Of a DNA stretch of 64,000 nt, positions 38,276 through 60,104 are shown piece by piece. Position 1 is the stretch's first letter. The number at the start of each line of letters is the position of its first letter. The stretch covers positions 124,001 through 188,000 of the forward strand of contig NZ_JACHOT010000005.1 in assembly GCF_014200015.1 (NCBI RefSeq), read 5' to 3'. The position numbers were made by a program, and so were the translations under genes. The notes under the pieces are model-generated. The model did not search any database. It was not told the DNA's origin and saw only the letters and a list, made by a program, of their open reading frames with translations. The DNA comes from Aminobacter niigataensis (GTDB lineage: Bacteria > Pseudomonadota > Alphaproteobacteria > Rhizobiales > Rhizobiaceae).

Positions 38276-38314
38276 GATCGGCTTTCCTTCACGGTTGCGA
38301 TGTGAGTGCGGTTG

Positions 38315-39837: not shown

Positions 39838-39841
39838 GATA

Positions 39842-41554: not shown

Positions 41555-41568
41555 GATCGTTCCTCCCC

Positions 41569-42264: not shown

Positions 42265-42279
42265 GGCGTGCGCTCCTCA

Positions 42280-44183: not shown

Positions 44184-44973
44184 GGCTGAGCGTCGCCGAT
44201 CCAAGATACGCCTCGATCACTGCGGGGTTGCGTTCGATCTCCTCCGCGGTTCCCTCGGCAAGCACTGATCCCTGGTGCATCACGGTAATGGTCCGGCAGA
44301 TGCGGCGGACGAATGCCATGTCGTGTTCGATGACCAGCACCGTGTGTTGGCCTGCAAGGTCGAGCAGCAACTCGGCCGTCTTGTCGGTTTCGGCCGAGGT
44401 CATCCCTGCGGCGGGCTCGTCGAGGAGGATGATCTTGGGGTCCTGGCTCAGGACCATTGCCAGTTCGAGCCATTGCAGTTGGCCGTGCGACAGTTCCGAT
44501 GCCTTGCGCTTCATCGAACCGAGCAAGCCGGTCCTTTCTGCGACGGCGATCTCCTTGTCGCTTGGACCTGATTTCACCCGATCGAACAGGTTCTGGAAGA
44601 CGCGGACGCGGCGGTTGCTGGCAACCTGCAGGTTTTCCAGCACGGTCATGTCCTTGAAAACCGTTGGCGTCTGGAATTTGCGACCAACGCCGCTCCTTGC
44701 AATGGCTGCCTCGCCGATGCCTGTAATGTTGCGGTCATGCAGCCAGATCTCGCCCTCGGACGGCAGCGTCTTGCCGCAAAGGAGGTCCAGCAAGGTCGAC
44801 TTGCCTGCACCGTTGGCGCCGATGATCACCCTGAGCTCGCCGTCGGCGATCGACAGATCGACGTCTCGTACCGCCGGAAATTCGTCGAACCTCACCGTCA
44901 GATTCTGCGTCCGCAGAATGGGCGCAGCCGATGCCAGTGCCGCAGATTGAGATGGCCTGTGAAGGGCATTCAT
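44176..44973 (-). CDS. urtD: Urea/amide ABC transporter, ATP-binding protein UrtD
   Basis: The second ATPase (LivG/UrtD group), 265 residues. Walker A is GANGAGKSTLLDLL, the signature region is ELSHGQLQWLELAMVL (degenerate LSGGQ: SHGQ, as is usual for UrtD), and Walker B is IILLDEPAAGMTSAE. It opens with a 25-residue N-terminal extension. It overlaps urtE by 8 bases and follows urtC by 3 bases. Confidence 0.93.
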   Translation of the reverse strand: MNALHRPSQSAALASAAPILRTQNLTVRFDEFPAVRDVDLSIADGELRVIIGANGAGKSTLLDLLCGKTLPSEGEIWLHDRNITGIGEAAIARSGVGRKFQTPTVFKDMTVLENLQVASNRRVRVFQNLFDRVKSGPSDKEIAVAERTGLLGSMKRKASELSHGQLQWLELAMVLSQDPKIILLDEPAAGMTSAETDKTAELLLDLAGQHTVLVIEHDMAFVRRICRTITVMHQGSVLAEGTAEEIERNPAVIEAYLGSATLSHA

Positions 44974-44976
44974 CGA

Positions 44977-46095
44977 TCATGCCTCCCTTGCGGACAGTTC
45001 GGCCTCGGCGAAGCGCTCGGCCTTGCCGGAGCGTTCGACCAAGGCCTTGAATATCCCGGCAATCCCGTTCGGCATGAACAGGACGACGAAGACAAAAAGC
45101 AGACCCAAAATGATCGGCCAGACCGGCTGGAAGGTCGCGCTTTCGCTGGCCAGGGAGCCGACGAAATTGACGATCAGAGCCCCGATACAGGCGCCGAGCA
45201 GCGATGCGCGGCCACCTGTCGCAGCCCAGATCACCATCGAGATGCTCAATGACGTCGCCATCAGCGACGGCGTGGCGAACTCGGAAGTCAGGGTGAACAG
45301 CATTCCCGCCAGGCCGGCGACACCGGCCGAAACGCAGAAGATGAAGAGCTTGTAGTTCTCGACGTCGTAGCCGAGGTAGCGGGCGCGCGCTTCGTCCTCG
45401 CGAATGGCCTTGAGTATCTGACCTATCCGCCCTGACAGCATGTAGCGTGCCAGGAGGATCACCGCGAGGAGCGTGAGCGCGACGGTGTAGTAGGCACTGG
45501 GGCCATAAGGGTCGAATTCAAAGCCGCCAATGTTCAGCAGCGCAAGGTTGGCGAGGCCGTTGAAGCCGCCGGTGAGCGGCTGGTTGTTGATGATCAGCAA
45601 CTGCCCGATCAAGGCGAAGGCCAGCGTGATGATGCTGACGTAGACGCCGGTCGTCCGTCGCTTGAACATAACATAGCCGATCGCGGCAGCCAAAATGCAC
45701 GGCACGACGATCCCAGCAATCATGCCGACCGTGATGGATCGAAATGGGATCCACAGGAACGAACCGGTGGTGACGCAACACAGATCTCGGACAGCATCCG
45801 GCTCCATGTTGAGAAGCATGAGTTGCGGTACCGGATTGTTTTCCGGCACGGCCAGGGTCAGCGACATCGCCAGCATGTAAGAGCCCATGCCGAAAAAAAG
45901 TCCCTGGCCGAGGCTCAGGATGCCGGCATAACCCCACGACATGCTGATGCCGATCGCGCAGATCGAATAGACAAGGTAGATCGCGACGCGGTTGGTCCAG
46001 AAGCTGTTGAGCACGAGCGGAAGCGCAAGCACAACGGCGAAGAACACTACGTATGCGACTATGGAAGCGGTGCGGTATGTCATGCGCTCGTCCAT
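44977..46095 (-). CDS. urtC: Urea/amide ABC transporter, permease UrtC
   Basis: An inner-membrane permease of the LivM/UrtC group, 372 residues, with about ten hydrophobic segments. GYAGILSLGQGLFFGMGSYMLAM near residue 55 and AIREDEARARYLGYDVENYKL near residue 240 are hallmarks. Two starts are possible, ATG at 46095 and at 46083. It lies 13 bases after urtB. The long loop at about 85-115 (PENNPVPQLMLLNMEPDAV) fits UrtC rather than LivM. Confidence 0.92.
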   Translation of the reverse strand: MDERMTYRTASIVAYVVFFAVVLALPLVLNSFWTNRVAIYLVYSICAIGISMSWGYAGILSLGQGLFFGMGSYMLAMSLTLAVPENNPVPQLMLLNMEPDAVRDLCCVTTGSFLWIPFRSITVGMIAGIVVPCILAAAIGYVMFKRRTTGVYVSIITLAFALIGQLLIINNQPLTGGFNGLANLALLNIGGFEFDPYGPSAYYTVALTLLAVILLARYMLSGRIGQILKAIREDEARARYLGYDVENYKLFIFCVSAGVAGLAGMLFTLTSEFATPSLMATSLSISMVIWAATGGRASLLGACIGALIVNFVGSLASESATFQPVWPIILGLLFVFVVLFMPNGIAGIFKALVERSGKAERFAEAELSAREA

Positions 46096-46108
46096 GTTGC
46101 AGCCAAGC

Positions 46109-46999
46109 TCAGCGGCTCTTGGTGACGAAGAGGCCCTGAGGCTTGAAGAGGAGAATAAGGATCACGACAGTGAACAGGACCGTTCGCCCGTAGACGTCGT
46201 TTGCCCAGGTGGCGACGAAGCTCTGGACTTCGCCGAGAATGCCTGCCGAGGCCATGGTGCCGAGCAGATGGCCAACGCCGCCGGCGACGACGACGAGAAA
46301 GGCATCGACGACATAAGGCGTTCCCATGTCGGGTGACACGGTCTTGAAACCCGACACCAGCACGCCCGCAATGCCCGCAAGTCCGGACCCATAGGCGAAC
46401 GCCAGCATATTGACGCGCTTGTCGTTGATACCGCAGGCGGCCGCTGTATTCCTGGCAACCGAAACGGCTCGAAGCTGGCTGCCGAAACGCGTCTTGAAGA
46501 TCAGCAACCAACTGATGGCGCCCAGTGCCAGGGCGGCCACGAACACGAAGGCCCGATAGACCGGTATGTTAGCGCCGAAAACACGTATGGCCTGCTGCAG
46601 TTCCGCGGGAACCGGGACGTTCTGAAGGTCCGAGCCGAGGCCGTCGATCTCGATGCCGAAGAGCCCGAGCCCAAAGTGAATGCGGATGAGCTGCTGCAGT
46701 ATGAGCGCGATGCCCCATGTCGCCAGCAAGGTATCGAGCAGCCGCCCGTAGAGCCTGCGAACGACAGTTCGCTCGATGATCAGCCCAAAGGTCGCCGTCA
46801 CCAGAAACGCCAGCGGCAGGCAGAGATAGATGTTGAAGCCAAGGTGCTTGGTCGCCAGGACCGTGGTGTAGGCCCCGATCATCACCATCTCGCCATGGGC
46901 CAGATTGATGACGTTCATGGTGCCGTAGATAATCGCCAGGCCAAGGGCGACCATGAAAAGTATCGATGCGATACTCAAGCCAATGACAAATGTTTCCAT
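46109..46999 (-). CDS. urtB: Urea/amide ABC transporter, permease UrtB
   Basis: An inner-membrane permease of the LivH/UrtB group, 296 residues. VALGLAIIYGTMNVINLAHGEMVMIGAY near the N-terminus and VSGFKTVSPDMGTPYVVDAF near residue 215 are typical of UrtB. About eight hydrophobic segments are seen. A strong hairpin lies in the 75-base gap after urtA. It does not carry the long periplasmic N-terminal domain of cyanobacterial UrtB. Confidence 0.92.
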   Translation of the reverse strand: METFVIGLSIASILFMVALGLAIIYGTMNVINLAHGEMVMIGAYTTVLATKHLGFNIYLCLPLAFLVTATFGLIIERTVVRRLYGRLLDTLLATWGIALILQQLIRIHFGLGLFGIEIDGLGSDLQNVPVPAELQQAIRVFGANIPVYRAFVFVAALALGAISWLLIFKTRFGSQLRAVSVARNTAAACGINDKRVNMLAFAYGSGLAGIAGVLVSGFKTVSPDMGTPYVVDAFLVVVAGGVGHLLGTMASAGILGEVQSFVATWANDVYGRTVLFTVVILILLFKPQGLFVTKSR

Positions 47000-47030
47000 G
47001 CCGCTTTCATCCGCGTCTGTCGAGGGATCG

Positions 47031-47056
47031 TGCCGGCGCGAGCATCCGCGCCGGCA
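47031..47056 (-). promoter_or_regulatory. Intercistronic hairpin between urtA and urtB
   Basis: A perfect 10-base inverted repeat (TGCCGGCGCG at 47031-47040 with CGCGCCGGCA at 47047-47056) and a 6-base loop lies between urtA and urtB, without a T-run. It is placed like the frcB-frcC hairpin and probably protects the binding-protein message. On the minus strand its loop reads GATGCT, so it does not satisfy the ANTAR rule (A at position 1). Confidence 0.6.
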
Positions 47057-47074
47057 AAGCTGGCTGATCGGGGA

Positions 47075-48322
47075 CTAGAGCGTCGCCCCGCTTGTCGCGC
47101 AGACCCGCTTCTCTGCCGTCTCGCCGACGCTCGAGTAAGGCAGCGGCACAAGCGGCTCGGCGTACTGATCGACAACGTCGAGCAGGCCGTCGGCACGGGT
47201 CTTGCCGATGCGCGGCGTCAGGTAGCTGTGCAGGTTGTCGGGATCGACCGTGACCTTGCCCTGCGGCGCGTCGAAGGACAGGCCGCCAACACTGGCAACA
47301 ATGGCCTCCGGCGCGAGATCGCCGGCTTTTTCTGCTGCCATTGCCCACATGTTGACGCCGATATACACCGCCTCCATCGCCGCGTGGGTCACAGCGTCAG
47401 CTCCGGCATAGGCCTTGAATGCCTCGACGAAAACCTTGTTCTGCGGCGTGTCGACGGTCTGGAAATAGGGTAGCGAAACGTAGCTTCCCAGCGCGTATTC
47501 AGGACCCATCGCCTTGATCTCGACTTCGGTTGTCGTCGAAGAACACAAGGGGAGCTTGTCGAAATCGTAGCCCTGGTTGCGCAGTTCCCGGTAGAAGGCA
47601 ACGATGGAGTCGCCCACGACGTTGGAGAAGATGACGTCTGCGCCGCTCGAGCCGATCTTTGATACCATCGACGCCCATTCGGTATGCCCGAGCGGGAGGT
47701 ACTCGTCGCCGACAACCTCCATGCCGATCCTTTCGCAGATCGTCTTCGAGGTCTTTGCCATCCCGCGGGGAAAGGCATAGTCGGAGCCGACGATGAAGAC
47801 CTTGTTCTTGCCGAGGCTCTTTTTCAGCCACGGCAGGGAATTTTCCAGCTGCTGGTTGGGCACTGCCGAGCCGGCGTAGAGCACGTTTTTGGAACACTCC
47901 TCGCCCTCGTACCAGGTCGGCCAGACCAGCAGTCCCTTGCGCCGCTCCACCACCGGCAGGACAGCCTTGCGGCTGGCTGTGGTGTAACAGCCGAAGATCA
48001 CCGGAACCTGGTCCTCGATCGTGAGCTTGCGCGCCTTTTCGCTGTATATGCGCGGCTCGGATGCAGGGTCTTCGATGATTGCACGCAGCTGGCGGCCAAG
48101 AACGCCACCCCTGGCGTTGATTTCGGCAATCGCCATCTGGGCGCACTGGTTCATCGATTTCTCGACGATCGCCGTGGTGCCCGTCAGCGAATACATGATG
48201 CCGACAGGAATCTCATTTGCCGCCCAGGCTTTGCCCCCGAGTCGCAGGATTGCCGGAGCTGCCAGTCCGACAGCCGCAAGACCCGATGCTTTAAGAAACG
48301 TACGTCGATCTTGGTTCTTCAT
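47075..48322 (-). CDS. urtA: Urea/short-chain-amide ABC transporter, substrate-binding protein
   Basis: A periplasmic binding protein of 415 residues. A twin-arginine signal is present (QDRRTFLKASGLAAVGLAAP, with the RR at residues 6-7, ending near AWAANE), so it is probably exported folded. The rest is a type I periplasmic fold (IPVGIMYSLTGTTAIVEKSM, VIFGCYTTASRKAVLPVVER, WPTWYEGEECSKNVLYAGSA) of the UrtA/FmdD group; either urea or short amides could be bound. The start follows AGGAGGAACA. Upstream lies a 481-base leader with a terminator and an ANTAR-type hairpin. Confidence 0.9.
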   Translation of the reverse strand: MKNQDRRTFLKASGLAAVGLAAPAILRLGGKAWAANEIPVGIMYSLTGTTAIVEKSMNQCAQMAIAEINARGGVLGRQLRAIIEDPASEPRIYSEKARKLTIEDQVPVIFGCYTTASRKAVLPVVERRKGLLVWPTWYEGEECSKNVLYAGSAVPNQQLENSLPWLKKSLGKNKVFIVGSDYAFPRGMAKTSKTICERIGMEVVGDEYLPLGHTEWASMVSKIGSSGADVIFSNVVGDSIVAFYRELRNQGYDFDKLPLCSSTTTEVEIKAMGPEYALGSYVSLPYFQTVDTPQNKVFVEAFKAYAGADAVTHAAMEAVYIGVNMWAMAAEKAGDLAPEAIVASVGGLSFDAPQGKVTVDPDNLHSYLTPRIGKTRADGLLDVVDQYAEPLVPLPYSSVGETAEKRVCATSGATL

Positions 48323-48803: not shown

Positions 48804-49412
48804 CTAGTCACGCATCTCTTTGAAGGTCAATAGCTCATGTGCATTGATGATCGCGCTCGCCAGATCGTCCATCGGAACGCGCTTTGCCATCGCCTGCCGA
48901 CGAATGTTTTCGTAGGCGTCATGCTCGGTAAGCCCTTGTGTTTCCATCAAAATACTCTTGGCCCGCAGGATCCGGTTGTTTCCGGCCAGCTTTCGCTCGA
49001 GCTTGCGGATTCGCTTGCCCGCATTCTGCCGTTCGAGCCAGAGAGCGCGCGCGATCGTCAGATTGGTCAGCAAACCAAATGGGCGGATCGGCCGCTCGAT
49101 GACTGCCAGCGCACCGCACTCCAGGACCACCTGAAGTGTACTTGGGTCTTCGTAAGTGACCACCGCCACAAGGGCGGGGTCGGACGGCTGCACCGGGCGA
49201 AACAGGCGCAGGATCTTTTCCCGGTTCTCCTGCTCGATCGAGACCAGGACCACCACCGCGGTCGGGCTTATCGCATCCGGCAGCGGCCACGTTGTTTCAC
49301 AGCTGCAGCCAATACGCCGTAGGTGCTCGACCAACGCCAATCCCTCCGGATCTGGCGGATGGATGACTTGAACGCGCAAGCCTTTCAGGTCCTGGAGTAT
49401 CCTGGTTGGCAC
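48804..49412 (-). CDS. amiR: ANTAR-domain transcription antiterminator AmiR
   Basis: An RNA-binding antiterminator, 202 residues. The N-terminal pseudo-receiver (LKGLRVQVIHPPDPEGLALV, RRIGCSCETTWPLPDA) resembles P. aeruginosa AmiR, including the absence of a phospho-acceptor aspartate site. A coiled coil follows at about 125-150 (AGKRIRKLERKLAGNNRI), then a C-terminal ANTAR bundle (AKSILMETQGLTEHDAYENI, RRQAMAKRVPMDDLA). The start is a GTG at 49412, 13 bases after the amiC stop, with a weak ribosome binding site, suggesting coupling to amiC. The target hairpins lie immediately downstream. Confidence 0.92.
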   Translation of the reverse strand: MPTRILQDLKGLRVQVIHPPDPEGLALVEHLRRIGCSCETTWPLPDAISPTAVVVLVSIEQENREKILRLFRPVQPSDPALVAVVTYEDPSTLQVVLECGALAVIERPIRPFGLLTNLTIARALWLERQNAGKRIRKLERKLAGNNRILRAKSILMETQGLTEHDAYENIRRQAMAKRVPMDDLASAIINAHELLTFKEMRD

Positions 49413-49425
49413 CGAAAACGATCCG

Positions 49426-50580
49426 CTATGCTTTGCGTTTCAGTTGATGTGGCTTGTTCATCCAATCATCAAATGACGCGGTGACAAAGTAAGGATCCGG
49501 CCTGACTCTCGTTTCGGATTGCCAGATGACGTCGAACTTGCCTTCCGAATTGACCCGCCCAATCCGCGACCAGAGTTCCGTATGATGATTGTCGGGGTCA
49601 ATCCGTATGCGGCCTTGCGGTGCATCGAATTCCAGCCCGGCCAAGTGTTTGGCCAAAGCCTCCGGCTCATCCGTGCCGGCCAGTTCCAGAGCCTTGGCGT
49701 AGAGATGTACCTGGAAATAGGCGGCCTCGGCACCTGCCGTGACAGGAGCATTGGGGCCAAAACGTTTCTTGTAGGCGGAAACAAACCGCTGCGCCTGTGG
49801 CGTGTCCAGAGTTTCGAAGAACGACGCCGAAGTCAGATGCCCGGCTGCAACCTCGGGCGCCATCTCGGCAACTTCAGCTTCGGTTGTCGTCAGGCTGGCG
49901 ATCGGCATGGTTTCGGCGTCGAAGCCGGCGTCCTTGTAGGCCTCGTAGAGCATAACCGCGCCGGTGCCGACGACCGTCGACACCACGATGTCCGGCTTCA
50001 GCTTCTTGATCTGCTTGATGACCCGGTCGAAATCCTTGCGGTTGGCTTCGACAGGGACGTAGATCTCATCGAGAATGGTCCCGTTGGCTCTCGTCACAAG
50101 ATCCATGACGACACGATTGTACTCGTAGGGGAACACATAATTCGAGCCGACCAGGAGGAAGCGCTTGCCGTAATTCTCTATCAGATACCGCGCGAGCTGG
50201 ACCGCATTCTGGTTCGACGACGAACCCGTATAGAAACAGCGTGTCGAGTACTCGAACCCCTCGTAGAAAGTTGGGTAGAACAGCATTCCCCGGTAGGATT
50301 CTATTTCCGGAAGGACGGCTTTTCTTGCCGATGACATATAGCATCCGAAAATGATCTTGATGCCATCCTCGGCGAGAAGGCGAACGGCGAGTTCCTGGTA
50401 CTTCTTGGCAGAACATTCCGGGTCATAAAAAACAGGCTTGATCAGTCGCCCCCGAACGCCGCCTGCTGCGTTGATCTCTTCTGTTGCCAGGCGTGTCGCG
50501 TTCGCTTCCGCCATCTCGGCCGCAGCAGTGACCCCGCTGCTGGAAAACAAGACGCCAATACGCCAGTCGACATTTGCCAT
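49426..50580 (-). CDS. amiC: Amide/urea sensor protein AmiC
   Basis: A cytoplasmic ligand sensor with a periplasmic-binding fold, 384 residues and no signal peptide (MANVDWRIGVLFSSSGVTAA). It resembles P. aeruginosa AmiC in length and in segments such as FGCYMSSARKAVLPEIE, FYPTFYEGFEYSTRCFYTGS, VSTVVGTGAVMLYEAY and IASLTTTEAEVAEMAPEV. In that system AmiC holds AmiR inactive until an amide is bound. The ligand here could be an amide, urea or a related compound. It starts a transcription unit 255 bases downstream of the GcvT-like gene and is followed by amiR. Confidence 0.92.
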   Translation of the reverse strand: MANVDWRIGVLFSSSGVTAAAEMAEANATRLATEEINAAGGVRGRLIKPVFYDPECSAKKYQELAVRLLAEDGIKIIFGCYMSSARKAVLPEIESYRGMLFYPTFYEGFEYSTRCFYTGSSSNQNAVQLARYLIENYGKRFLLVGSNYVFPYEYNRVVMDLVTRANGTILDEIYVPVEANRKDFDRVIKQIKKLKPDIVVSTVVGTGAVMLYEAYKDAGFDAETMPIASLTTTEAEVAEMAPEVAAGHLTSASFFETLDTPQAQRFVSAYKKRFGPNAPVTAGAEAAYFQVHLYAKALELAGTDEPEALAKHLAGLEFDAPQGRIRIDPDNHHTELWSRIGRVNSEGKFDVIWQSETRVRPDPYFVTASFDDWMNKPHQLKRKA

Positions 50581-50835: not shown

Positions 50836-51969
50836 TTACCCCTTTGCGGTCCGCTTTTTCTTTTCCGGATCGTCAAAGGTCAGCGTGTGGGCAACTGCGT
50901 TGGCCCGCAGCGACTTGCCGCGGACTTCCAGCTTGACGCCTTGCCTGGCATAAGGCACATCGAGACGGGCGATCGCCATCGATCGCCTGGTCAGCTTCGA
51001 ATAGGACGGGCAGGTGATGACGCCGACCTTCTTGCCGTCGGCCCAGACCTCGTCGCCGAGATCGGCCATCTTGTCGCCTTCAATCAGCATGCCGAAGATC
51101 TTGAAGCGCTCGTTGCCCTTCTGGCGATAATGCTCTTCCGCACCCCGGAAGCCGGTCTTGCCAGGCGATACCGTGAAGTCGAGGCCGAGTTCCCACAGGC
51201 TGTCACCGACGGGCTGGCCCGGGATCGGGTACATCTGCGAATTGTCGTAGGGATAAAACAGCAGGTAGCTCTCGACGCGCAGCAGGTCGAGCGTGCTGAA
51301 GCAGCATGGGATGATGCCCATATCCTTGCCTTCGGAAAGGATCGTGTCCCAGACCAGCCGCGCATCCTGGCCGCGCACGAAGATCTCGTAGCCGCGCTCG
51401 CCGGTGTAGCCCGTTCGCGAGATCGTCACCGGGGCGCCGAACAGTGTCGTGTGGATGTGGTGGAAATAATTGAGGTCGCGGATTCCGGGCACATGCTTGG
51501 CCAGGAAATCGACCGCCACCGGCCCCTGCAGCGATAGATCGTGAAGATCGTCGTCGAACAGCACGGCACAATTGCGCCCGGCCGCCTGCTTGATGATCTC
51601 TTCATGCGCGGTGCCGGTTCCGCTGACCAGCATCCAGGAATTGGGTCCATTGCGATAGAGCACGCAATCATCGGTCAGGTGGCCGCGCTCGTTGAGGATC
51701 GCGGCATAGACCGAACGGCCCGGCTGGATCTTGGCCACGCTGCGCGTCGTGATGTACTCGAGGATCGCAATCGCGTGCGGCCCGATCAGGTGCATCTTCC
51801 GCAATCCCGAGACGTCCATCAGCCCGGCCTTGGTGCGGATCGCGACGTGCTGGTCAAACGGATCGGCGTCGTAGGTCCAGGCAGTTCCCATGCCGCTCCA
51901 ATCCTCGAGATTGGAGCCCAGTGCGCGATGGCGGTCGCCGAGGGCGGTAAAGCGCCAGCTCAAAGTCAT
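50836..51969 (-). CDS. GcvT-like aminomethyltransferase-family protein
   Basis: A tetrahydrofolate-dependent transferase-like protein of 377 residues. The GcvT fold is shown by RTKAGLMDVSGLRKMHLIGP, ILNERGHLTDDCVLYR, ISRTGYTGERGYEIFVRG and the C-terminal beta-barrel (KMADLGDEVWADGKKVGVIT). No gcvH or gcvP lies nearby. The family also includes demethylases such as DmdA and LigM, so a role in moving a one-carbon group from an N-methylated substrate or product is possible. The gene follows the second HupE gene after a hairpin-rich gap, in the same orientation. Confidence 0.82.
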   Translation of the reverse strand: MTLSWRFTALGDRHRALGSNLEDWSGMGTAWTYDADPFDQHVAIRTKAGLMDVSGLRKMHLIGPHAIAILEYITTRSVAKIQPGRSVYAAILNERGHLTDDCVLYRNGPNSWMLVSGTGTAHEEIIKQAAGRNCAVLFDDDLHDLSLQGPVAVDFLAKHVPGIRDLNYFHHIHTTLFGAPVTISRTGYTGERGYEIFVRGQDARLVWDTILSEGKDMGIIPCCFSTLDLLRVESYLLFYPYDNSQMYPIPGQPVGDSLWELGLDFTVSPGKTGFRGAEEHYRQKGNERFKIFGMLIEGDKMADLGDEVWADGKKVGVITCPSYSKLTRRSMAIARLDVPYARQGVKLEVRGKSLRANAVAHTLTFDDPEKKKRTAKG

Positions 51970-52185: not shown

Positions 52186-52806
52186 TCAGCCGGCCAGGCC
52201 GGCTGCCAGCACAACGCCTGCGGCGGCGATGCCGCCACCGCCCACCTTGAGCGCGTTGCGCCAGGACAAGCGGGCGACGAAGCTGGCAAGCGAGAAGCCC
52301 AGCGCATGCAGCACAACTGTCGAAGCGACAAACCCCAGCCCATAGAGGAAGGCATTGCTGGCAATCGGCAATTCCTGGCCGTGGGCGAAACCGTGCAGCC
52401 CGCCGAAGGCAACCGTCATCGCAAAGGCCGCGCCGAACGGCACGCGGCTGCCCAGCGCCACGATCGCGCCCAGCAACACCACCGAGCCGGCAATACCCAG
52501 TTCGACAAAGGGAAGCGACAGTCCGGTCATGCCAAAGACCGCGCCGGCGATCATTCCGATGACGAAGCCGAGCGGTAGCCAGCGAAACACCGGCTCATTG
52601 TCTGCATTCTGACCGGCCCAGATGCCGACCCCGGCCATGGCCAGGATGTGATCAAGCCCGGAGAGCGGGTGAGATAACCCAGCGCCGAGACCACCGGCCT
52701 CGGGTAGAAAATGCGCGTAGCTCGGCATCGTCGACGCGGCATATGCAACGGCAACCGCTGCAGCCAACCGCGTGACCTTTGTTGTGTTCGTTGTCGTGTT
52801 CACCAT
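52186..52806 (-). CDS. HupE/UreJ-family membrane protein (hydrolase-linked copy)
   Basis: A 206-residue inner-membrane protein, probably a nickel permease. A signal-like N-terminus ends near SYAHFLPEAGG, followed by the family HPxxGxDH motif (GLSHPLSGLDHILAM) at about residues 50-64 and FGGLHGFAHGQELP later; six hydrophobic segments are seen. It lies 47 bases after the catalytically depleted hydrolase paralogue, in the same operon as hypA and hypB, and is a distant paralogue of the urease-linked copy. The ATG at 52806 was preferred; a longer frame lies inside the hydrolase gene. Confidence 0.88.
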   Translation of the reverse strand: MVNTTTNTTKVTRLAAAVAVAYAASTMPSYAHFLPEAGGLGAGLSHPLSGLDHILAMAGVGIWAGQNADNEPVFRWLPLGFVIGMIAGAVFGMTGLSLPFVELGIAGSVVLLGAIVALGSRVPFGAAFAMTVAFGGLHGFAHGQELPIASNAFLYGLGFVASTVVLHALGFSLASFVARLSWRNALKVGGGGIAAAGVVLAAGLAG

Positions 52807-52853
52807 CAACTCCTGTGGCCGGCCGCAGCCGGCCTTGTCCAAATGGTTGTCTT

Positions 52854-53900
52854 TTACTCTGCGGCGACCAGATCGGTGCGGCGCAGGCTGGCATCGATGA
52901 CGTCGCCATTTTGCGCCGCCAATGACGCCATCAGGCGCATGATGACGCACGCCGCCAGGCGGGCCGCCGTGCCGCTGATGTCGAAGATCGGGCATAGCTC
53001 GGTGAGATCGATGACGCTGACACTGCCGCGCTTTGCGATCATGTCGGCGATGCGCATCATCTCACGCGACTCGATGCCGCCTGGCTCCGTCGAGGTGACG
53101 CCGGGTGCAGCCGACGAATCCATGACGTTGAAATTGAAGCTGAGATACTGCGCGTCGGTATCGCCCCAGACCCGCTCGATCGAGCGCTCGACCAGCGGGT
53201 AGATGCCGCCGTCGAACAGGTCGAACATCGAGTCGTAGTGCAGACCCCGCTCCTTCGACAGGTCGACATGGTCCTTGGGGTTCATGGCGTTGCGGGCGCC
53301 CAGATGCGCGACATTTCTGATGTCGAGATTGGGCAGTTCGGTGATGCGCGCCATGGCGCACGGGGCGAGATTGCGCTCGCCGGCCCAGCTGTCGGCCATA
53401 TCGAGCTGGGCGCTGAAATGCATGTAGCCCATCTTCTTGGAGGCACCGATATGATCGGAAAGAGCGCGTGCCGCCGCAATCGAAATCGAGCGGTCACCGC
53501 CGCAGATGATCGGCGTGAGGCCAGACTTCAGGACTTCGCGGACCGCACGATAGATGCGCTCATGAGCCACCTCGGGGCTGACCTTCGGCATCGAGACGTC
53601 GCCGCAATCGACAGCCTTGCCATGCAGGTCGACATTGTATTCGAACCAGTAGGAGAAATACTCCTGCGAAACGAGGCGGAACTCGCGCGGGCCGTCTTCC
53701 GATCCGGGCTTGCCGACATTGCCTTCGTCGAAAGGCACGCCGACAAAGGCGTATTTGGCACCGCAGGCCCTAAGCGCTTCGGCATTCAGCGGCACGTGGG
53801 CAGACCGCAGGAACGTGATCAGGCCTGGCGCGCGGTAGTTGTCTCCGGCGTCGCCGCCAAGCGGCGAGAACAGGTGGGCGTAGGATTTTGCTGGGTTCAT
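52854..53900 (-). CDS. Arginase-fold paralogue lacking most metal ligands (putative non-catalytic subunit)
   Basis: A 348-residue ureohydrolase-family protein whose metal site is degenerate. Compared with the neighbouring hydrolase, GGDH is GGDR (R137), DxHxD reads SAQLD (S163, Q165, D167) and DxDxxD reads NFNVMD (N256, N258, D261). Five of six canonical ligands are therefore replaced, while flanking segments (GVPFDEGN, YFSYWFEYNVD, VDCGDV, ARNAMNPKD) stay close to the active paralogue. Such a pair of active and inactive subunits is reported for metformin hydrolase. I infer it forms a mixed oligomer with the neighbour. The gap to the upstream hydrolase gene is 25 bases. Confidence 0.88.
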   Translation of the reverse strand: MNPAKSYAHLFSPLGGDAGDNYRAPGLITFLRSAHVPLNAEALRACGAKYAFVGVPFDEGNVGKPGSEDGPREFRLVSQEYFSYWFEYNVDLHGKAVDCGDVSMPKVSPEVAHERIYRAVREVLKSGLTPIICGGDRSISIAAARALSDHIGASKKMGYMHFSAQLDMADSWAGERNLAPCAMARITELPNLDIRNVAHLGARNAMNPKDHVDLSKERGLHYDSMFDLFDGGIYPLVERSIERVWGDTDAQYLSFNFNVMDSSAAPGVTSTEPGGIESREMMRIADMIAKRGSVSVIDLTELCPIFDISGTAARLAACVIMRLMASLAAQNGDVIDASLRRTDLVAAE

Positions 53901-53925
53901 GACTTAATCTCCTCCCTGAGAATTC

Positions 53926-54999
53926 TTACGGTTGCTTGCCCTGCTGGCGCAGGGTCTGGGCACGCGAGCCGAGATAGTGGTAGATCATGTTGACCGTCAT
54001 CTTGGCGCTGATCTGGCTGGAGTCGAAGTACGGGCAGAGCTCGACCACATCGAGGATGTCGCAGCCGTGGCGGCCGGCGATGCGCGCGAACTGGATCGCT
54101 TCCCGCCCCTTGAGGCCATAGCATTCCGGCGAGGTAGAGCCGGGCATGCAGCTCATGTCGATCGAGTCCGTATCCCAGGTGAAGTAGAGCGTATCTGCGT
54201 CCTTCTTCACCCGTTCGAAGATCTCGTTGGCGCACACTTCCAGTCCGCGCTCGATCATCTCGGGCATGGTGACGACACGGATCTCGTTGTCGACGTAGAA
54301 ATCCCACCAGTCCTTGGGATTGAGGCCGTTGCGCGAGCCCATATGCGCCATGTTCCTGGCGTTGCAGTTGGGCAGGTCAAGCGCGCGCGGCGTGCCCGAG
54401 CAGTTGGTGATCAGGTTGCCGGCCCAGTCGGGTCCGGCGTCGAGGTGGCTGTCGACATGCAGGTAGCCCATCTTGCCGCTGCCGGTAAATTTCGACAGCG
54501 CCTTGGCGCCGGGGATCGGCAGGGAGTGATCGCCGCCGAACAGGATCACCTTGGCGCCGCCTTCGAGGCACTCGGTGACGTAGTCGGTGGTGTATTCCTG
54601 CGACTTGATGTTGTTGCCCGGCACCGTCGGCACGTCGCCGCAGTCGACGACACGGAAAAAGCTCAACAGGTCGACGTCGTATTCGAACATGTAGGGAAAA
54701 TACTGCGTCGTCGCCTCGCGCAGCCCCGAAGCGCCTTGCGAGGCGCCGGCGCGCACGATCTGGCCCTGGTCCCATGGAACGGCCAGGAAGCAGATCTTTG
54801 CACCCATTTCGCGAATCTTGTGACGGTCCGGCGGGCAATAGGGCGCGCCCATGAAGGTGGCGAGCCCCCTGGATTTGAACGAGCCGTTATGCAGCTTCGG
54901 AGAGTAGATGTGGTCATTCTCGCCGAACTGCTCGGCGGGGCCACGATGTTGATGTGGCGTGAATTGCCACTTGGCTATGTCTGCTTTTCGATCAAGCAT
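53926..54999 (-). CDS. Ureohydrolase-family enzyme, probable nickel-dependent guanidine-type hydrolase
   Basis: A 357-residue arginase/agmatinase-fold enzyme with all six canonical metal ligands: H158 (GGDHS), D183, H185, D187 (DSHLD), D276 and D278 (WDTDSID, D281 also conserved). The insertion-rich N-terminus (about 1-65) and the DSHLDAGPDW and TWDTDSIDMSCMPG contexts differ from ordinary agmatinases and match what I recall of the guanidine hydrolase (GdmH) and metformin hydrolase group. The adjacent hypA and hypB genes support nickel rather than manganese. The likely reaction is guanidine or a substituted guanidine to urea (or guanylurea) plus ammonia or an amine. The exact substrate is not determinable from sequence. 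Confidence 0.85.
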   Translation of the reverse strand: MLDRKADIAKWQFTPHQHRGPAEQFGENDHIYSPKLHNGSFKSRGLATFMGAPYCPPDRHKIREMGAKICFLAVPWDQGQIVRAGASQGASGLREATTQYFPYMFEYDVDLLSFFRVVDCGDVPTVPGNNIKSQEYTTDYVTECLEGGAKVILFGGDHSLPIPGAKALSKFTGSGKMGYLHVDSHLDAGPDWAGNLITNCSGTPRALDLPNCNARNMAHMGSRNGLNPKDWWDFYVDNEIRVVTMPEMIERGLEVCANEIFERVKKDADTLYFTWDTDSIDMSCMPGSTSPECYGLKGREAIQFARIAGRHGCDILDVVELCPYFDSSQISAKMTVNMIYHYLGSRAQTLRQQGKQP

Positions 55000-55020
55000 G
55001 CTGTTCCTCCCAACAGATAA

Positions 55021-55410
55021 CTACTGAAGTGTTTGCCCAACCGGGGCCAACGCCGGATGTGGAGCTTCTTCCTCAAGCTCGATGTGGGTCAGTTCCATCT
55101 CGCGTCCGGACAGCACCTTGCGCGAAGGCCTCCCGCAGTCCGTGCAGCGAAGATTGGAAAGAGAGAGCGGCGAACGCGCCTCGGCGCAGTGCTCGCAGAA
55201 TATGGTCAGCGGCACTTCCTCGATGTGCAGCTTGGCGCCTTCGCAGAGCGTGCCGCGCGTTGCCGGGCCGAAGCAGAAATACAGCGAGCGGGCGATGCCG
55301 CACATGACGCCGAGACGCACATGCATTCCGGTGACCCGGGCGCGGCCGTTGCGCGCGGCGTGATCGCTGGCAAGGTCGATCAGGCTTGAGGCGATGGTGA
55401 GTTCGTGCAT
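55021..55410 (-). CDS. hypA: HypA-family nickel chaperone
   Basis: A nickel/zinc metallochaperone of 129 residues. The N-terminal nickel site MHE (H2, E3) is intact, and zinc is held by CEHC and CTDC pairs at about residues 72-94. The 20-residue tail beyond the usual end (EEEAPHPALAPVGQTLQ) is unusual. It lies 9 bases after hypB and 21 bases before the hydrolase gene. No hydrogenase or other hyp gene is in the window, so it most likely serves the nickel hydrolase, like the accessory proteins of GdmH. Confidence 0.93.
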   Translation of the reverse strand: MHELTIASSLIDLASDHAARNGRARVTGMHVRLGVMCGIARSLYFCFGPATRGTLCEGAKLHIEEVPLTIFCEHCAEARSPLSLSNLRCTDCGRPSRKVLSGREMELTHIELEEEAPHPALAPVGQTLQ

Positions 55411-55419
55411 GGCGCCACC

Positions 55420-56427
55420 TCAGGCGTGGAGCGTGTTGCGGATGGACTCCACCCGCGCCTGCAGGTCTCGCGCGAGGTCCTGCAGCTGCTGCTGGCGGGC
55501 CCGGACGATCCACTCCAGCCATGCCGTCATCCCGGTGCCATCGCGCGCCGACACGACGATGCTTTCGATCGCCGGGTTGACTTCGCGGGCACGGGCAACG
55601 CAGGCCTCGATGTCGAAATCGCAGTAGGGTGCCAGGTCCGACTTCGAGATGACCAGAAGGTCGGCCGCGGCGAACGCCTCGGGATATTTGACCGGCTTGT
55701 CGTCGCCTTCGGTGACAGACAGAATGACCACCTTGTGGGCTTCGCCAAGGTCGAAGCCGGCCGGGCAGGCAAGGTTGCCGACGTTTTCGATGAACAGGAC
55801 GCCGCCCTGCTGCAGCGAGAGCGATTCAAGCGCACGCTTGATCATGTCTGCGTCCAAGTGGCAGCCCTTGCCGGTATTGATCTGCACCGCCTGGGTGTCC
55901 GTCGCACGAATGCGATCGGCATCGTTGGTCGTCTCCTGATCGCCCTCGATCACCCAGGTCGGGAAGGTGCCCTTCAACCGCTGCAAGGTCTCGACCAGCA
56001 AAGTGGTCTTGCCCGCCCCGGGGCTGGCGATCAGGTTGAGCGCAAGCACGCCATGCCCGCACAGTTCGTCGCGGACGCCGTCGGCAAACATGCCGTTCTT
56101 GGCCAGGATCTCCTGCTCGATCTGCACCAGCCGCTTCTGGCTCATGCCCGGAACATGGGTCTTGGCGGCATCCTTGCCGAAATGCAGATCACCGCCGGCG
56201 CCACCAGCAACGGAATGCTGGTGCTCATGCATGCCGTCGTCGCCATGAACGTGACCGTGGGCGCCGCGGTGATGATGTCCGTCATCGTGGTCGTGGTGAT
56301 GGTGCCCATCATGGTGATGATGATGATCGCCATGATGGTGATGGGCATGCAGGTGCTCGTGGCCATCCCCACCGCTCTTGCCATCAATACGAATGTTCTC
56401 AGGCCCGCAGCCGCATACCTGGCACAT
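55420..56427 (-). CDS. hypB: HypB-family nickel-binding GTPase
   Basis: A GTPase for nickel delivery, 335 residues. The N-terminal high-affinity nickel site CxxCxC is present (MCQVCGCG). Residues 23-71 contain 26 histidines, a nickel-storage stretch. The G domain has NLIASPGAGKTTLL, then EGDQETTNDADRIRA, FIENVGNLACPAGFDLGE and ISKSDLAPY as the specificity motif. It lies 2 bases after the TetR gene stop and 9 bases before hypA, in one operon with the hydrolase pair. Confidence 0.95.
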   Translation of the reverse strand: MCQVCGCGPENIRIDGKSGGDGHEHLHAHHHHGDHHHHHDGHHHHDHDDGHHHRGAHGHVHGDDGMHEHQHSVAGGAGGDLHFGKDAAKTHVPGMSQKRLVQIEQEILAKNGMFADGVRDELCGHGVLALNLIASPGAGKTTLLVETLQRLKGTFPTWVIEGDQETTNDADRIRATDTQAVQINTGKGCHLDADMIKRALESLSLQQGGVLFIENVGNLACPAGFDLGEAHKVVILSVTEGDDKPVKYPEAFAAADLLVISKSDLAPYCDFDIEACVARAREVNPAIESIVVSARDGTGMTAWLEWIVRARQQQLQDLARDLQARVESIRNTLHA

Positions 56428-56429
56428 GG

Positions 56430-57134
56430 CTATCTCCCGCTCTTGGTTGTGGAAGGGCTTTTGGCTGAAGGATCGCCGGCATAGTGCAGCAGTCCCCAGA
56501 CCACCTCCTTGAGGTACCGCATCGCTGCGGGGATCGGCGCGCCATGCGGCATGAAACTGCCGAAGTAGATGCCGTCGATGTTGCGCGAGATGAATGCCGC
56601 CATCTCATCGGGGTCCGGGCAGGCAAACATGCCCACCTCGACGCCCTTGCGGATGCAATCGGCGAGAACCCTCTTTTCGGACTCGTAGAAGTCCTCGACG
56701 AAGCTATCGATGAACTTGGGGCCTGCGTCCTTGGCGCCTCCGGCATTGACGAACATGATGCGCACGAGGCTGCGCAGCGTCTCCGACATCTCGACATTGA
56801 GGTCCAGATAGGCGCTCAGCAACGCGGCCGGGCTCTCATGCCGCGCGACCACCTCGCCATAGTTGGTCATCAGTCGATCAAGCGCGTGAAGCACGGAGGA
56901 CTGGTAGAGCGAGTCTTTGTTCTTGAAGTAATAATAGATAAGCGAATGAGCGACGCCAAGCTTCTTGGCAATAAGCGGAATTGTTACACTCTCAAAATCT
57001 TCTTCGGCAAAGCATTCGAGCGCCGCTTCCAACAACGACTCCGCCCGAACCCCAGGATTGCGGTAGAGGCGATTTTTGGCCCGTTTGACCGATTTCACGC
57101 GATCTTCAAGGTGAATGAGAGCGGCGGATTCCAT
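56430..57134 (-). CDS. TetR-family transcriptional regulator
   Basis: A 234-residue TetR regulator. The helix-turn-helix lies at about residues 33-76 (SLLEAALECFAEEDFESVTI, IAKKLGVAHSLIYYYFKNKD). The C-terminal ligand domain is helical, with no clear ligand hints. ATG at 57134 is preferred because AGGAAG precedes it; an in-frame ATG at 57158 has no ribosome binding site. It is the first gene of the hypB-hypA-hydrolase operon, 2 bases from hypB, and is divergent from the permease genes, so autoregulation and control of both units are likely. Confidence 0.88.
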   Translation of the reverse strand: MESAALIHLEDRVKSVKRAKNRLYRNPGVRAESLLEAALECFAEEDFESVTIPLIAKKLGVAHSLIYYYFKNKDSLYQSSVLHALDRLMTNYGEVVARHESPAALLSAYLDLNVEMSETLRSLVRIMFVNAGGAKDAGPKFIDSFVEDFYESEKRVLADCIRKGVEVGMFACPDPDEMAAFISRNIDGIYFGSFMPHGAPIPAAMRYLKEVVWGLLHYAGDPSAKSPSTTKSGR

Positions 57135-57836
57135 CGATGACTTCCTGACTTTGAGCATTGCCGGAGAAGCGCGACGCGACTGCGTCGGTTCAGCACCTGA
57201 AGTACGGCCAGGCTGCCGCTTCAGATGTCGAGGGCACTGGGTACTCGACTGCACTTTCGAGCTTGACGCTACGTAGCTTTGACACCGCTGTCAACACGCA
57301 TTTTGAACTCCCTTGGCGACTTCGCGAGAAAATGGTTCGTGCCATACGCGGTCATCAGCAACCTCATCGGGAGAAACACAAGCACCTGCCGACAACGATT
57401 AACGCACTGAAATATCTAATTTAATTGCATTGTTGATTTTGATTCCTGTATTTCGTCGGCTCGCCTGAGTGTGGTCGACGGCACATTGTTTTTGCTCATA
57501 TACATGCAAATTCCCTAATGTTTTTACATGCCTGTCAGGAAAATTGTTTGACACAACAATCAAACTGCCGCAACGTAACAGCGTGATGGGTGGCGGCCTC
57601 AAACACGGTGAGAGGCGCGCCGCGCATCCGACGGAACCTTGGGGGTCGATCAGACAGGAGAACCCCGCTTGCACGCCACCCAGCCTCAAACGAACAGATC
57701 GATCGGGCGCGCCCTCGCTCGCATGGGTGCCGCGGCGATTCCGGACTGCCAGGACAACAAGACGATGCCGAACCGGGACTTTGGAGGACAATCAACGCCC
57801 GGATAGGTGTTCATTTAATCTTTGGAGGAGGATGAA
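57135..57836. other. Long divergent regulatory region between TetR and the permease unit
   Basis: A gap of about 700 bases with no convincing gene. It contains a 16-base palindrome-like site TTGACA-CCGC-TGTCAA (57279-57294), close in layout to the RutR site TTGACCA-NN-TGGTCAA, and a second inverted repeat GTTTGA-8-TCAAAC (57546-57565) which embeds TTGACA (57548-57553), a possible -35 box for the permease unit. The section 57410-57550 is AT-rich. The rest, 57590-57830, is GC-rich and would be transcribed as a 5' leader; no known guanidine riboswitch was identified in it. Confidence 0.55.
57279..57294. promoter_or_regulatory. Candidate TetR operator
   Basis: TTGACA and TGTCAA in perfect inversion with a CCGC centre, 145 bases before the TetR start. 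RutR, a TetR-family regulator of pyrimidine use, binds a 16-base site of nearly the same form. The two flanking AGCTT-GAC-like direct repeats (57260-57284) may extend the site. The assignment is by position and symmetry only. Confidence 0.5.
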
Positions 57837-58028
57837 ATGACTATCGCTTCAGAAAATCCAGACAATGAAATGCGTCGGGAACTAAACCGGCGACTGAACA
57901 TCGTTGCGGATCCGAGTTACGGGGATCCAGCGCGTGCGGATATATCGGGCCGGGATCTCGGAATCTGGTTCGCCACGACGGCAGCCATCTTGATTGTCGC
58001 GCTCGCCATGTGGAGCGGAGGCAACTGA
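57837..58028 (+). CDS. Small single-TM protein coupled to the permease
   Basis: A 63-residue protein with a charged N-terminus (ENPDNEMRRELNRRLNIVAD) and one hydrophobic segment near the C-terminus (LGIWFATTAAILIVALAMW). No known family is recognised. A strong GGAGGA ribosome binding site precedes the ATG at 57837. Its stop overlaps the permease start by one base (TGATG), so the two are translationally coupled. It may be an accessory or stabilising peptide of the permease. Confidence 0.7.
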   Translation: MTIASENPDNEMRRELNRRLNIVADPSYGDPARADISGRDLGIWFATTAAILIVALAMWSGGN

Positions 58029-59440
58029 TGGCCGCCGCACCAAAATTCACCGGCGCGAGTGCTGCCTTCGGCACGCTCCCCGTGCTCAAGGAAGAGCGGG
58101 AACTCGGCTTCCTAGATCATTCCTGGATCAATATCGGCCTTGCCATCGCCACATGGGCGTTCCTGCTCGGCGGCAGCACGGCCCTTGTCGTCGGAGCCCG
58201 CGACGGCATCTACGCCATCATCATCGGCAACGTCATCGGCGTTTCGATCATGGCCGTCAGCGTCTGCATCTCGACCGGGAAGTTCGGCATCGAGCAATTC
58301 ACGCTGATGCGCAGCGTCTTCGGACCTGTCGGCATCCTGATCTTGGTCGGATTTTTCCTTGCCATCTACGGCGTCGGCTGGTCGGCAATCCTGTCGATCA
58401 TGTTCGGGCGCGCGATCAGCGGCGTCATGAACCAGGTCGGCGGCACGCAAATCGGCGAAAACGATCTCGGCGTGACGTTCCTTGCCATCCTGGCAATCAC
58501 CATCTCATGGCTTCTGCTCTGGAAAGGGCCAACTGCCGTCAAATGGCTCAACCGCTTCGTCGGGCCGGGCAAGCTCATCCTCTGCTTCGGCATTCTGTTC
58601 CTCATCTTCAGCCACAAGAGCTGGAGCGACATCGCAAACGCAGCTCCGCTCGCGCCGTTCGACGACCGCCGGCTCAATTTCATGATCGCCGTCGAGTTCA
58701 ATCTTGCCGCCGGCTTCGGATGGTGGCCGGTACTGGGCAACATTTCGCGCTTCACCCGCACGCCGCGCGCCGCGCTGTGGCCCAATCTCATCGGTATCTT
58801 CGCGGCCGCCGTTCTCGGTGAACTAGTCGGCTTGTTTGCCGCCCTGAGCCTGGGATCGCATGACCCGACGGCCTGGATGATCCCGCTGGGGGGAGCCTTT
58901 GTCGGCGTGACCGCGCTGCTGTTCGTCGGACTGGCAAACATCACCGCCATCGTCAGCATCTTCTACGGCATGTGCCTGGCGATGCGGCAGGCAGGCGGAC
59001 GCTACTTCGAAGCCCTGCCCTGGGGCCTGCTGACCGGCGCATTGTTTGTTCCGGTGATCGTCATCGCCTTCTTCCCGGGCCAGATCTACGACAACTTCTT
59101 CAAGTTCCTCGCCTGGACCGCACTCGGATTTGCACCGCTCTCCGGCGTGACGGCGATGGACTACCTGGTCCTGCGCAGAGGCCGGATCAAGCAGTGCGAC
59201 GTCTTCAACGACGGTGCCGATTCCGACTACGCCTTCTGGCGCGGCATCAATCCGGCTTCGTTCCTGGCCCTGGCAGGTGGGGGCATCGTCTACTACGCGT
59301 TGTTCGATCCCCAGTCGCTTGCCGCGCATGGTCCATTCGTCTGGATCAGTGCGTCTGTACCTGCCTGTCTCGTGGCAGCGATCCTTCACTACGCTCTGAC
59401 CAAGGCATTGGTGATGCCGGCACGGCGCGGAGGATATTGA
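58028..59440 (+). CDS. NCS1-family permease (cytosine/purine/allantoin type)
   Basis: A membrane transporter of 470 residues with about twelve hydrophobic segments. Family traits: hydrophilic N-terminus, GFLDHSWINIGLAIATWAFLLGG, FGIEQFTLMRSVFGPVGIL and EFNLAAGFGWWPVLGNISRF, which resembles the substrate-binding helix 6 region of cytosine permeases. The substrate is unknown; being divergent from the hydrolase operon, a guanidine-type nitrogen compound is a reasonable inference. It overlaps the 63-residue protein gene by one base and is followed by an XRE-cupin gene 25 bases later. Confidence 0.88.
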   Translation: MAAAPKFTGASAAFGTLPVLKEERELGFLDHSWINIGLAIATWAFLLGGSTALVVGARDGIYAIIIGNVIGVSIMAVSVCISTGKFGIEQFTLMRSVFGPVGILILVGFFLAIYGVGWSAILSIMFGRAISGVMNQVGGTQIGENDLGVTFLAILAITISWLLLWKGPTAVKWLNRFVGPGKLILCFGILFLIFSHKSWSDIANAAPLAPFDDRRLNFMIAVEFNLAAGFGWWPVLGNISRFTRTPRAALWPNLIGIFAAAVLGELVGLFAALSLGSHDPTAWMIPLGGAFVGVTALLFVGLANITAIVSIFYGMCLAMRQAGGRYFEALPWGLLTGALFVPVIVIAFFPGQIYDNFFKFLAWTALGFAPLSGVTAMDYLVLRRGRIKQCDVFNDGADSDYAFWRGINPASFLALAGGGIVYYALFDPQSLAAHGPFVWISASVPACLVAAILHYALTKALVMPARRGGY

Positions 59441-59449
59441 TCTCGGGAT

Positions 59450-59480
59450 CGGGTGATCCGCTCACATGACGGATCACCCG
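59450..59480 (+). promoter_or_regulatory. Perfect hairpin whose loop holds the start codon of the XRE-cupin gene
   Basis: An 11-base inverted repeat (CGGGTGATCCG at 59450-59460 and its exact complement at 59470-59480) has a 9-base loop, CTCACATGA, containing the ATG at 59466. In RNA it would hide the region where the ribosome binding site lies; in DNA it is a good palindromic operator for autorepression. It also lies where a terminator of the permease unit might be, but no T-run follows. Confidence 0.6.
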
Positions 59481-60104
59481 CTTCACGCAACCCCAACCAT
59501 CGATCCAGATCCCAAAGTGAAGCGAGCCAGGGAACCACTGTTGCATAGCGCAATCGGTCGGGAGGTCCGCGCCTTTCGAACCAGGCACGGCATGAAGGTG
59601 ACCGACCTGGCCGCAGCCACGAAACTGTCGGTTGGAATGCTCTCAAAGATCGAGAACGGGGACATTTCGCCTTCCCTTACAACGCTGCAGGCGATATCTC
59701 GCGGCTTGGCTGTGCCCATTACCTGGCTGGTGAGCCGCTTCGAATCCGAACGTACTGCCGTCTTCGTCAAAGCCGGTAGCGAGGTTGCTCCGAACAGCAG
59801 CGCAGCCAGACAGCAATGCGAGCCCCTCGGCCATACAGACCGCAACGCCGATGGACTTGTCGTCGAGCCCCAGCTGATCTCCCTCACCTGCCAGACAGAC
59901 GTCTTTCCGGCAGCCGGCCATCAGGGAACGGTCTTCCTATACCTGCTGCAAGGCGAAATCGTATATCGTCACGGGGCTGACACCTATCGGATGACGCCCG
60001 GGGATAGCCTGTTCTTCGACGCGACAATCCAACATGGTGTCGACGAATTGGCCCAACTGCCCATCCGCTGTTTGTCTGTCATGACCCGCCGTCGAGACAG
60101 ATGA
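59466..60104 (+). CDS. XRE-family regulator with C-terminal cupin domain
   Basis: A 212-residue regulator. The helix-turn-helix is at about residues 28-83 (IGREVRAFRTRHGMKVTDLA, SVGMLSKIENGDISPSLTTL) and the cupin at about 140-205 (FLYLLQGEIVYRHGADTYRM, PGDSLFFDATIQHGVDELAQ). It is paralogous to the regulator at 36902 over the whole length after the N-terminal tail, but the middle section is diverged (APNSSAARQQCEPLGHTDRN). It follows the permease gene and begins inside a hairpin. A role in controlling the permease or hydrolase operon is inferred. Confidence 0.88.
   Translation: MTDHPLHATPTIDPDPKVKRAREPLLHSAIGREVRAFRTRHGMKVTDLAAATKLSVGMLSKIENGDISPSLTTLQAISRGLAVPITWLVSRFESERTAVFVKAGSEVAPNSSAARQQCEPLGHTDRNADGLVVEPQLISLTCQTDVFPAAGHQGTVFLYLLQGEIVYRHGADTYRMTPGDSLFFDATIQHGVDELAQLPIRCLSVMTRRRDR

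Follow-up and report, generated by a model that had tools for sequence, protein, structure and literature searches.

A probable chromosomal dimethylguanidine hydrolase operon of Aminobacter niigataensis and its relationship to metformin hydrolase

Identity of the hydrolase pair

Two adjacent genes of the arginase family in Aminobacter niigataensis very probably form the core of a chromosomal dimethylguanidine hydrolase (DmgH) operon, which would encode alpha and beta subunits together with the means of nickel supply. The genes lie in a stretch of 64,000 nucleotides (assembly GCF_014200015.1, contig NZ_JACHOT010000005.1, positions 124,001 to 188,000), referred to here as the window. The predicted catalytic subunit, alpha (357 residues; Pfam PF00491, E 1.5e-47), is encoded at 53926-54999, and its partner, beta (348 residues; PF00491, E 1.2e-53), which has a degraded metal site, at 52854-53900, both on the minus strand. 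The pair is not a new system. The DmgH type had already been produced, tested for activity and given its name in the work of Sinn et al. (2024; PMC11399263), who describe nickel-dependent hydrolysis of dimethylguanidine but not of metformin, and propose the type as the predecessor of metformin hydrolase. An earlier note on this DNA had suggested that the pair forms a nickel-dependent heteromer acting on guanidine or a substituted guanidine and akin to metformin hydrolase; that suggestion is supported for a substituted guanidine, and its subject was already in print as DmgH (PMC11399263).

The nearest solved structures for both subunits were those of metformin hydrolase (MefH, MetCaCb or MfmAB; PDB 8ryi, 8x3g, 8snf, 8snk and 8sp2), with subunits ∼93-94% identical to those of the window. 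Window alpha was identical to the 8x3g alpha at 335 of 357 positions (22 differences) and to the alpha of Pseudomonas mendocina pMET-2 at 333 of 357 (24 differences), and differed from the 8snf alpha at 24 of 356 positions. The alignment with the alpha of A. niigataensis MD1 (8ryi_B) gave 23 differences, namely the 22 seen with 8x3g plus position 322, while 324 of 348 positions were identical between window beta and the 8ryi beta (24 differences). For comparison, ∼93% identity to metformin hydrolase is reported for the pair of A. niigataensis DSM 7050, whose alpha has 23 differences (PMC11399263).

The residues associated with substrate choice separate the two activities. Position 184 of alpha is described as Ser in DmgH and Cys in metformin hydrolase, and positions 288-290 as Ser288-Thr289-Ser290 in the one and Asn-Ser-Ala in the other (PMC11399263). 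Window alpha carries the DmgH set, as published for the Aminobacter type, and lacks Cys184 and Asn288-Ser289-Ala290, which are present in pMET-2 alpha. Since Ser184 and Ser-Thr-Ser at 288-290 are as in DmgH, the substrate narrows to N,N-dimethylguanidine, which the window pair would be expected to convert to urea and dimethylamine. The gene order is also that of DmgH: hypA and hypB precede tandem alpha and beta genes, of which beta has a degenerate metal site, HupE follows them and urease is close by. Indeed, the DSM 7050 system matches the window in its 23 alpha differences from AnMefH alpha and ∼93% beta identity, in its ligands, Ser184 and Ser-Thr-Ser at 288-290, and in its chromosomal location with hypB-hypA upstream, HupE downstream and urease nearby; no difference was found, the comparison being one of published counts and residues alone.

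That the window pair is itself a metformin hydrolase is considered highly improbable, despite several points of likeness. Both subunits are ∼93% identical to it, the alpha ligands and a similarly degraded beta site are common to the two, and the operon core (hypB-hypA-alpha-beta-hupE), together with TetR and NCS1 genes, is shared with pMET-2; additionally, trace metformin activity has been reported for two homologous pairs (PMC11271267). The residues at 184 and 288-290 nevertheless argue against such an assignment, as does the undetectable metformin activity reported for the DSM 7050 enzyme with the same residues (PMC11399263). Likewise, a transporter mutant did not regain the use of metformin when given the NCS1 homologue of DSM 7050, although the level of expression may have been the cause (PMC13390362). 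Further differences from the metformin enzyme are that MefH beta has Gly where window beta has Ser163, and that the 19.6 kb of pMET-2 fetched for comparison showed none of the GcvT-like, urea transporter and urease genes that lie near the window pair.

After metformin hydrolase, the next-best solved relatives of alpha were PDB 7esr and 9fek, listed as agmatinase 2 (135 and 130 bits), which we take to be of the guanidine hydrolase GdmH kind. GdmH is a single gene acting on guanidine. Like the window pair it belongs to the arginase family, and nickel and nickel chaperones are reported for it (PMC11399263).

Metal sites, relatives and phylogeny

Window alpha holds all six metal ligands listed in the earlier note (H158, D183, H185, D187, D276 and D278), and beta matches to the residue the series given there for the paralogue, R137, S163, Q165, D167, N256 and N258. 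In an alignment of the two subunits, the six residues of this series lie opposite the six alpha ligands, of which five are changed in beta.

Next, the conservation of these positions was examined among relatives, which were recovered from one genome per species by six short peptide patterns of window alpha, a scan that misses more distant pairs. Alpha relatives, with 62 to 99% identity, were encoded at 27 loci in 25 assemblies (two assemblies having two loci each), and 22 of the loci come from metagenome-assembled genomes (MAGs). All six ligands were kept in 25 of 25 fully readable loci, and the remaining two keep the four that are readable. The beta survey comprised 26 rows (the window, 24 genome loci and pMET-2), including one gap row from which unread letters had been removed. 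Asn was found at both D276 and D278 in 26 of 26 rows, Gly at D183 in 23 (Ser in three) and Arg at H158 in 24 (His in two), while H185 was kept in 19 rows (Gln in seven) and D187 in 25, with one gap. The beta proteins that retain His at the H158 position are those of loci L009 and L018.

In a midpoint-rooted tree of 57 rows, which contained no GdmH, from which the truncated loci L027 and L028 were left out and for which X letters (seen in L009 beta) were removed before alignment, alpha and beta formed two groups (support 97/96 and 100/99). Four further arginase-family paralogues encoded in the window genome, on very long branches, were separated from the two groups together (98/97). A two-clade alpha/beta picture is likewise given by Li et al. 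(PMC11271267) and Sinn et al. (PMC11399263).

These results bear on a further possibility, that the genes encode a manganese-dependent agmatinase or guanidinobutyrase pair and that HypA, HypB and HupE serve only the urease. The best NCBIfam match of both subunits is indeed an agmatinase model, and ∼10 kb away is a urease that has a HupE/UreJ of its own. However, the scores of 121 and 126 bits fall below the curated cut-off of 174, and both subunits separate from the four paralogues in the tree. Moreover, the urease set has its own UreD, UreF and UreG, and hypA accompanies alpha in 25 of 27 loci as against three of 27 for ureC (in flanks of unequal length), leaving this explanation with very little credibility. 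Metformin hydrolase, a manganese agmatinase and a urease-only nickel supply were rejected, then, on residues, the NCBIfam cut-off, the tree and hypA linkage. The other accompanying genes were found with alpha at similar frequency (hypB in 23 of 27 loci, beta in 24), some misses being contig ends.

Within the genus, five of 10 genomes hold the alpha gene (E ≤ 1e-60), and in a sample of the family five of 394 genomes gave a match at E ≤ 1e-90, four of them Aminobacter. Most of hypB-hypA-alpha-beta was present in three of 72,556 plasmid records, all from Pseudomonas, with 92 to 93% DNA identity. Their alpha genes differ mutually by 1 to 3 bases and their hypA and hypB genes by none; beta, compared for two of the three, showed no difference.

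Several relatives depart from the general pattern. The beta of locus L024 (9120-10184) has a long branch and 56% identity to window beta. Loci L013, L016 and L019 are MAG pairs with Cys184 and Thr-Ser-Cys; their bin names presumably point to marine invertebrate symbionts, and the bins COS4, CAR2 and RHO1 among the relatives are presumed to be those of sponge symbionts. MAG KW1-S11_145 (L011 and L015) has two alpha-type genes, and within the stretch fetched only one of them is accompanied by beta and hypBA. In MAG OFTM97 (L017 and L020) there are two alpha-beta pairs, both with a hypB and a hypA; they read Thr-Thr-Ala and Thr-Ser-Cys at 288-290 and perhaps act on two substrates.

Nickel supply, proposed reaction and fate of the products

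HypA, a nickel metallochaperone (55021-55410), and HypB, a GTPase with a His-rich N-terminal stretch (55420-56427), are encoded on the minus strand directly upstream of alpha, as the earlier note had it. The absence of a hydrogenase gene, also remarked there, extends to the whole genome (5.28 Mb in 26 contigs, completeness 100), in which neither the NiFe hydrogenase large subunit (PF00374) nor HypD (PF01924) had a match at E ≤ 0.001. HypA is the genome's only PF01155 match. Since PF00374 and HypD are both without matches, HypA and HypB appear to have no hydrogenase to serve, and activation of both DmgH and metformin hydrolase is reported to have depended on the two proteins (PMC11399263).

In the proposed scheme, the NCS1 permease would import the cationic substrate and HupE would take up nickel, which HypB and HypA may load as two Ni2+ into alpha, co-expression having been needed for the homologues. 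Alpha and two metal-free beta subunits would form a trimer, two of which would pair as an alpha2beta4 hexamer, as shown for metformin hydrolase. The MefH structures, 93-94% identical to the window proteins, are of this composition with nickel in alpha only, and the subunits were inactive when expressed alone (PMC11399263); the accounts of MetCaCb (PMC11271267) and MfmAB (PMC11647477) agree on a heteromer of uneven stoichiometry. The dinickel centre would then split N,N-dimethylguanidine into urea and dimethylamine, a reaction shown for the DSM 7050 homologue. Urease would release ammonia from the urea, while a DmmABC-like enzyme, with its genes at another place in the genome, would demethylate the dimethylamine, the methyl carbon possibly being passed to folate by the DmmD-like protein next to the hydrolase.

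Genes for handling these products were found. A urea-type transporter, urease and a DmmD-like gene all lie inside the window, and the region around the pair is one of urea transport, urease and related genes, so that the description of housekeeping surroundings in the earlier note was inexact. The DmmD-like gene, which encodes a GcvT-like folate protein (50836-51969, minus strand, downstream of HupE), accompanies the pair in four of four other Aminobacter loci. Its product is 70% identical to that of a second gene (G000:C7:495-1625), which stands upstream of an open reading frame (ORF) resembling, by eye, a ferredoxin reductase and of a PF11927 gene of the HODM/DmmA type (C7:3390-4226); a second PF11927 match lies on C8. 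The C7 set resembles dmmDABC, in which DmmD contains a GcvT domain that binds folate and the protein is proposed to make formaldehyde less toxic to the cell (PMC5520151), and a DmmD-like paralogue beside a hydrolase releasing dimethylamine fits the proposed products.

Some published observations weigh against so simple an assignment of substrate. The homologous pair AcMetCaCb, with an alpha 93.8% identical to MetCa, hydrolysed metformin ∼20,000-fold more slowly than MetCaCb (Li et al., PMC11271267), and given this slow hydrolysis a trace metformin activity of the window pair is possible. The published accounts also differ: of three homologous pairs, two are reported to have trace metformin activity and one to have none (Li et al., PMC11271267), as against none in DmgH (Sinn et al., PMC11399263), and the dimethylguanidine activity of metformin hydrolase is given as ∼20-fold below its metformin activity (Sinn et al.) as against none (Li et al.). 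Furthermore, dimethylguanidine is stated not to have been identified in biological systems (Sinn et al., PMC11399263), and for that reason the natural substrate may be another compound. A loose literature search for dimethylguanidine as a marine natural compound did not find the word among the matches listed.

It is therefore conceivable, though judged unlikely, that dimethylguanidine is a stand-in for another dialkylated guanidine. Besides the lack of a known natural occurrence, the modest published constants of DmgH (KM 2.6 mM in HEPES, kcat 0.9 per second; PMC11399263) would suit this possibility, as would the NCS1 permease, for which no match was found in the fetched stretch of 23 of the 27 relatives' loci. 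On the other hand, the type strain, DSM 7050, grows on dimethylguanidine as sole source of carbon, nitrogen and energy (PMC11399263), and the genome has genes for both of its products.

Relationship to the drug-degrading enzyme

A cousin of DmgH degrades metformin, a diabetes drug that is among the most used of all drugs, and the earlier note had suggested that the window pair might lie near the natural ancestor of that enzyme. The five natural Aminobacter copies (the window and those of A. anthyllidis, A. carboxidus, A. aganoensis and strain AP02) supply evidence on the origin of the drug enzyme from silent sites and from outgroup states. Silent divergence was calculated by the NG86 method with our own script; the L006 beta and L003 hupE comparisons were dropped, wrong pieces having been lined up. 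Between the window and pMET-2 it was 0.23 for alpha, 0.34 for beta, 0.27 for hypA, 0.16 for hypB, 0.16 for hupE, 0.47 for NCS1 and 0.56 for TetR, and between window alpha and the four other natural alphas 0.34 to 0.40. The window was the nearest natural copy to pMET-2 at silent sites in six of seven genes (hupE without L003), the exception being TetR, for which A. aganoensis was nearer (0.37). Divergences of this size would be far too large for decades of change.

At the amino-acid level the trend is reversed. Natural alphas differ from window alpha at 5 to 7 positions and pMET-2 alpha at 24. The proximity suggested earlier is only partly borne out, by alpha at silent sites, but in the protein tree the drug alpha falls outside all five natural Aminobacter alphas (99/91), and A. 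aganoensis equals the window in closeness to pMET-2 alpha (24 differences for both) and surpasses it in beta (19 differences, as against 21 for AP02 and 24 for the window). For beta, the same tree left the order of pMET-2 and the natural copies unsettled.

Codons unique to one of the six taxa were then counted, using only sites at which the other five codons are identical. In alpha, pMET-2 had nine replacement and 10 silent codons of this kind, compared with none and 52 in the five natural copies (Fisher p 1.2e-6), and in beta two and eight compared with one and 75 (p 0.035). Unique alpha positions at the amino-acid level numbered 19 in pMET-2, one each in the window and AP02, and none in the other three. 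These data support faster amino-acid change towards the drug enzyme, as read from a count that does not distinguish change on the pMET-2 branch from change on the stem leading to the natural ones, ignores recombination and was chosen after the identities had been seen.

At 19 alpha positions pMET-2 stands against a state common to all five natural copies, and the outgroups do not always point one way. pMET-2 has the majority outgroup state at four, namely Cys184 (20 of 21 outgroup alphas), Ala189 (19), Thr268 (18) and Leu304 (14). At five others (92, 95, 301, 321 and 331) most outgroups carry the state of the natural copies, pMET-2 being the changed one. The nearest outgroup, L006, shares Thr268, Leu304 and Ile282 with pMET-2, shares Gly189 and Ser-Thr-Ser at 288-290 with the window, and has a state of its own, Ala184. 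From these outgroup states, including those of L006, Thr268 and Leu304 are best read as retained in the drug enzyme, Cys184 is probably a retained older state and Ala189 possibly a change back. Ser289 occurs in 10 and Ala290 in nine of the 21 outgroup alphas, never both together, whereas Asn288 occurs in none and is the only one of the four published specificity residues lacking from all.

Taken on these grounds, the window copy looks like a cousin and not an ancestor of the drug enzyme, a qualification that is seemingly new; the papers on metformin hydrolase, DmgH or MfmAB that a search of an open-access library listed use no word starting with 'synonymous'. There is perhaps an even chance that the line leading to the drug enzyme separated from the five sampled DmgH copies of Aminobacter well before the drug existed, kept older states and then underwent a burst of amino-acid change in alpha, rather than arising by a few recent changes; its direct ancestor would in that case be an unsampled DmgH, perhaps with Cys184. 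The published mutagenesis, by contrast, began from Ser184. Conversely, the MD1 paper suggests that the enzyme evolved recently and through only a limited set of mutations; it also assigns MD1 and DSM 7050 to the same species and describes the synteny around the cluster as conserved (PMC9699525).

Other features of the locus

Transcription on the minus strand would run in the order TetR, hypB, hypA, alpha, beta, HupE/UreJ and GcvT-like, with the NCS1 permease and XRE-cupin genes divergent. The HupE/UreJ permease ORF as listed (52186-52995, minus strand) overlaps beta, and its true start probably lies near 52860, the pMET-2 counterpart being annotated as 224 residues. The TetR family regulator (56430-57254, minus strand) matches in position the TetR/AcrR regulator of pMET-2, and the NCS1 permease (58010-59440, plus strand) shares 435 of 471 residues with the cytosine permease encoded in the metformin cluster of pMET-2. 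Beyond the GcvT-like gene, and likewise on the minus strand, are a periplasmic-binding-type protein placed like AmiC (49426-50580), an AmiR/ANTAR regulator (48804-49412), the urea-type ABC transporter (43488-48322) and the urease genes (37673-42963: UreF, fused gamma/beta subunits, alpha subunit, UreG and UreD, with the second HupE/UreJ permease), UreE not having been looked for in this set. No guanidine riboswitch was found in the window at the Rfam gathering score, the sole match to reach that score being a tRNA.

The XRE-cupin regulator gene (59466-60104, plus strand) adjoins the NCS1 permease. By eye, its product is like two other XRE-type regulators, one at 36902-37612 of the window, next to the urease/HupE genes, and one at L042 2508-3242, next to the DmmA-type gene; the three perhaps constitute one regulatory set for methylated nitrogen compounds.

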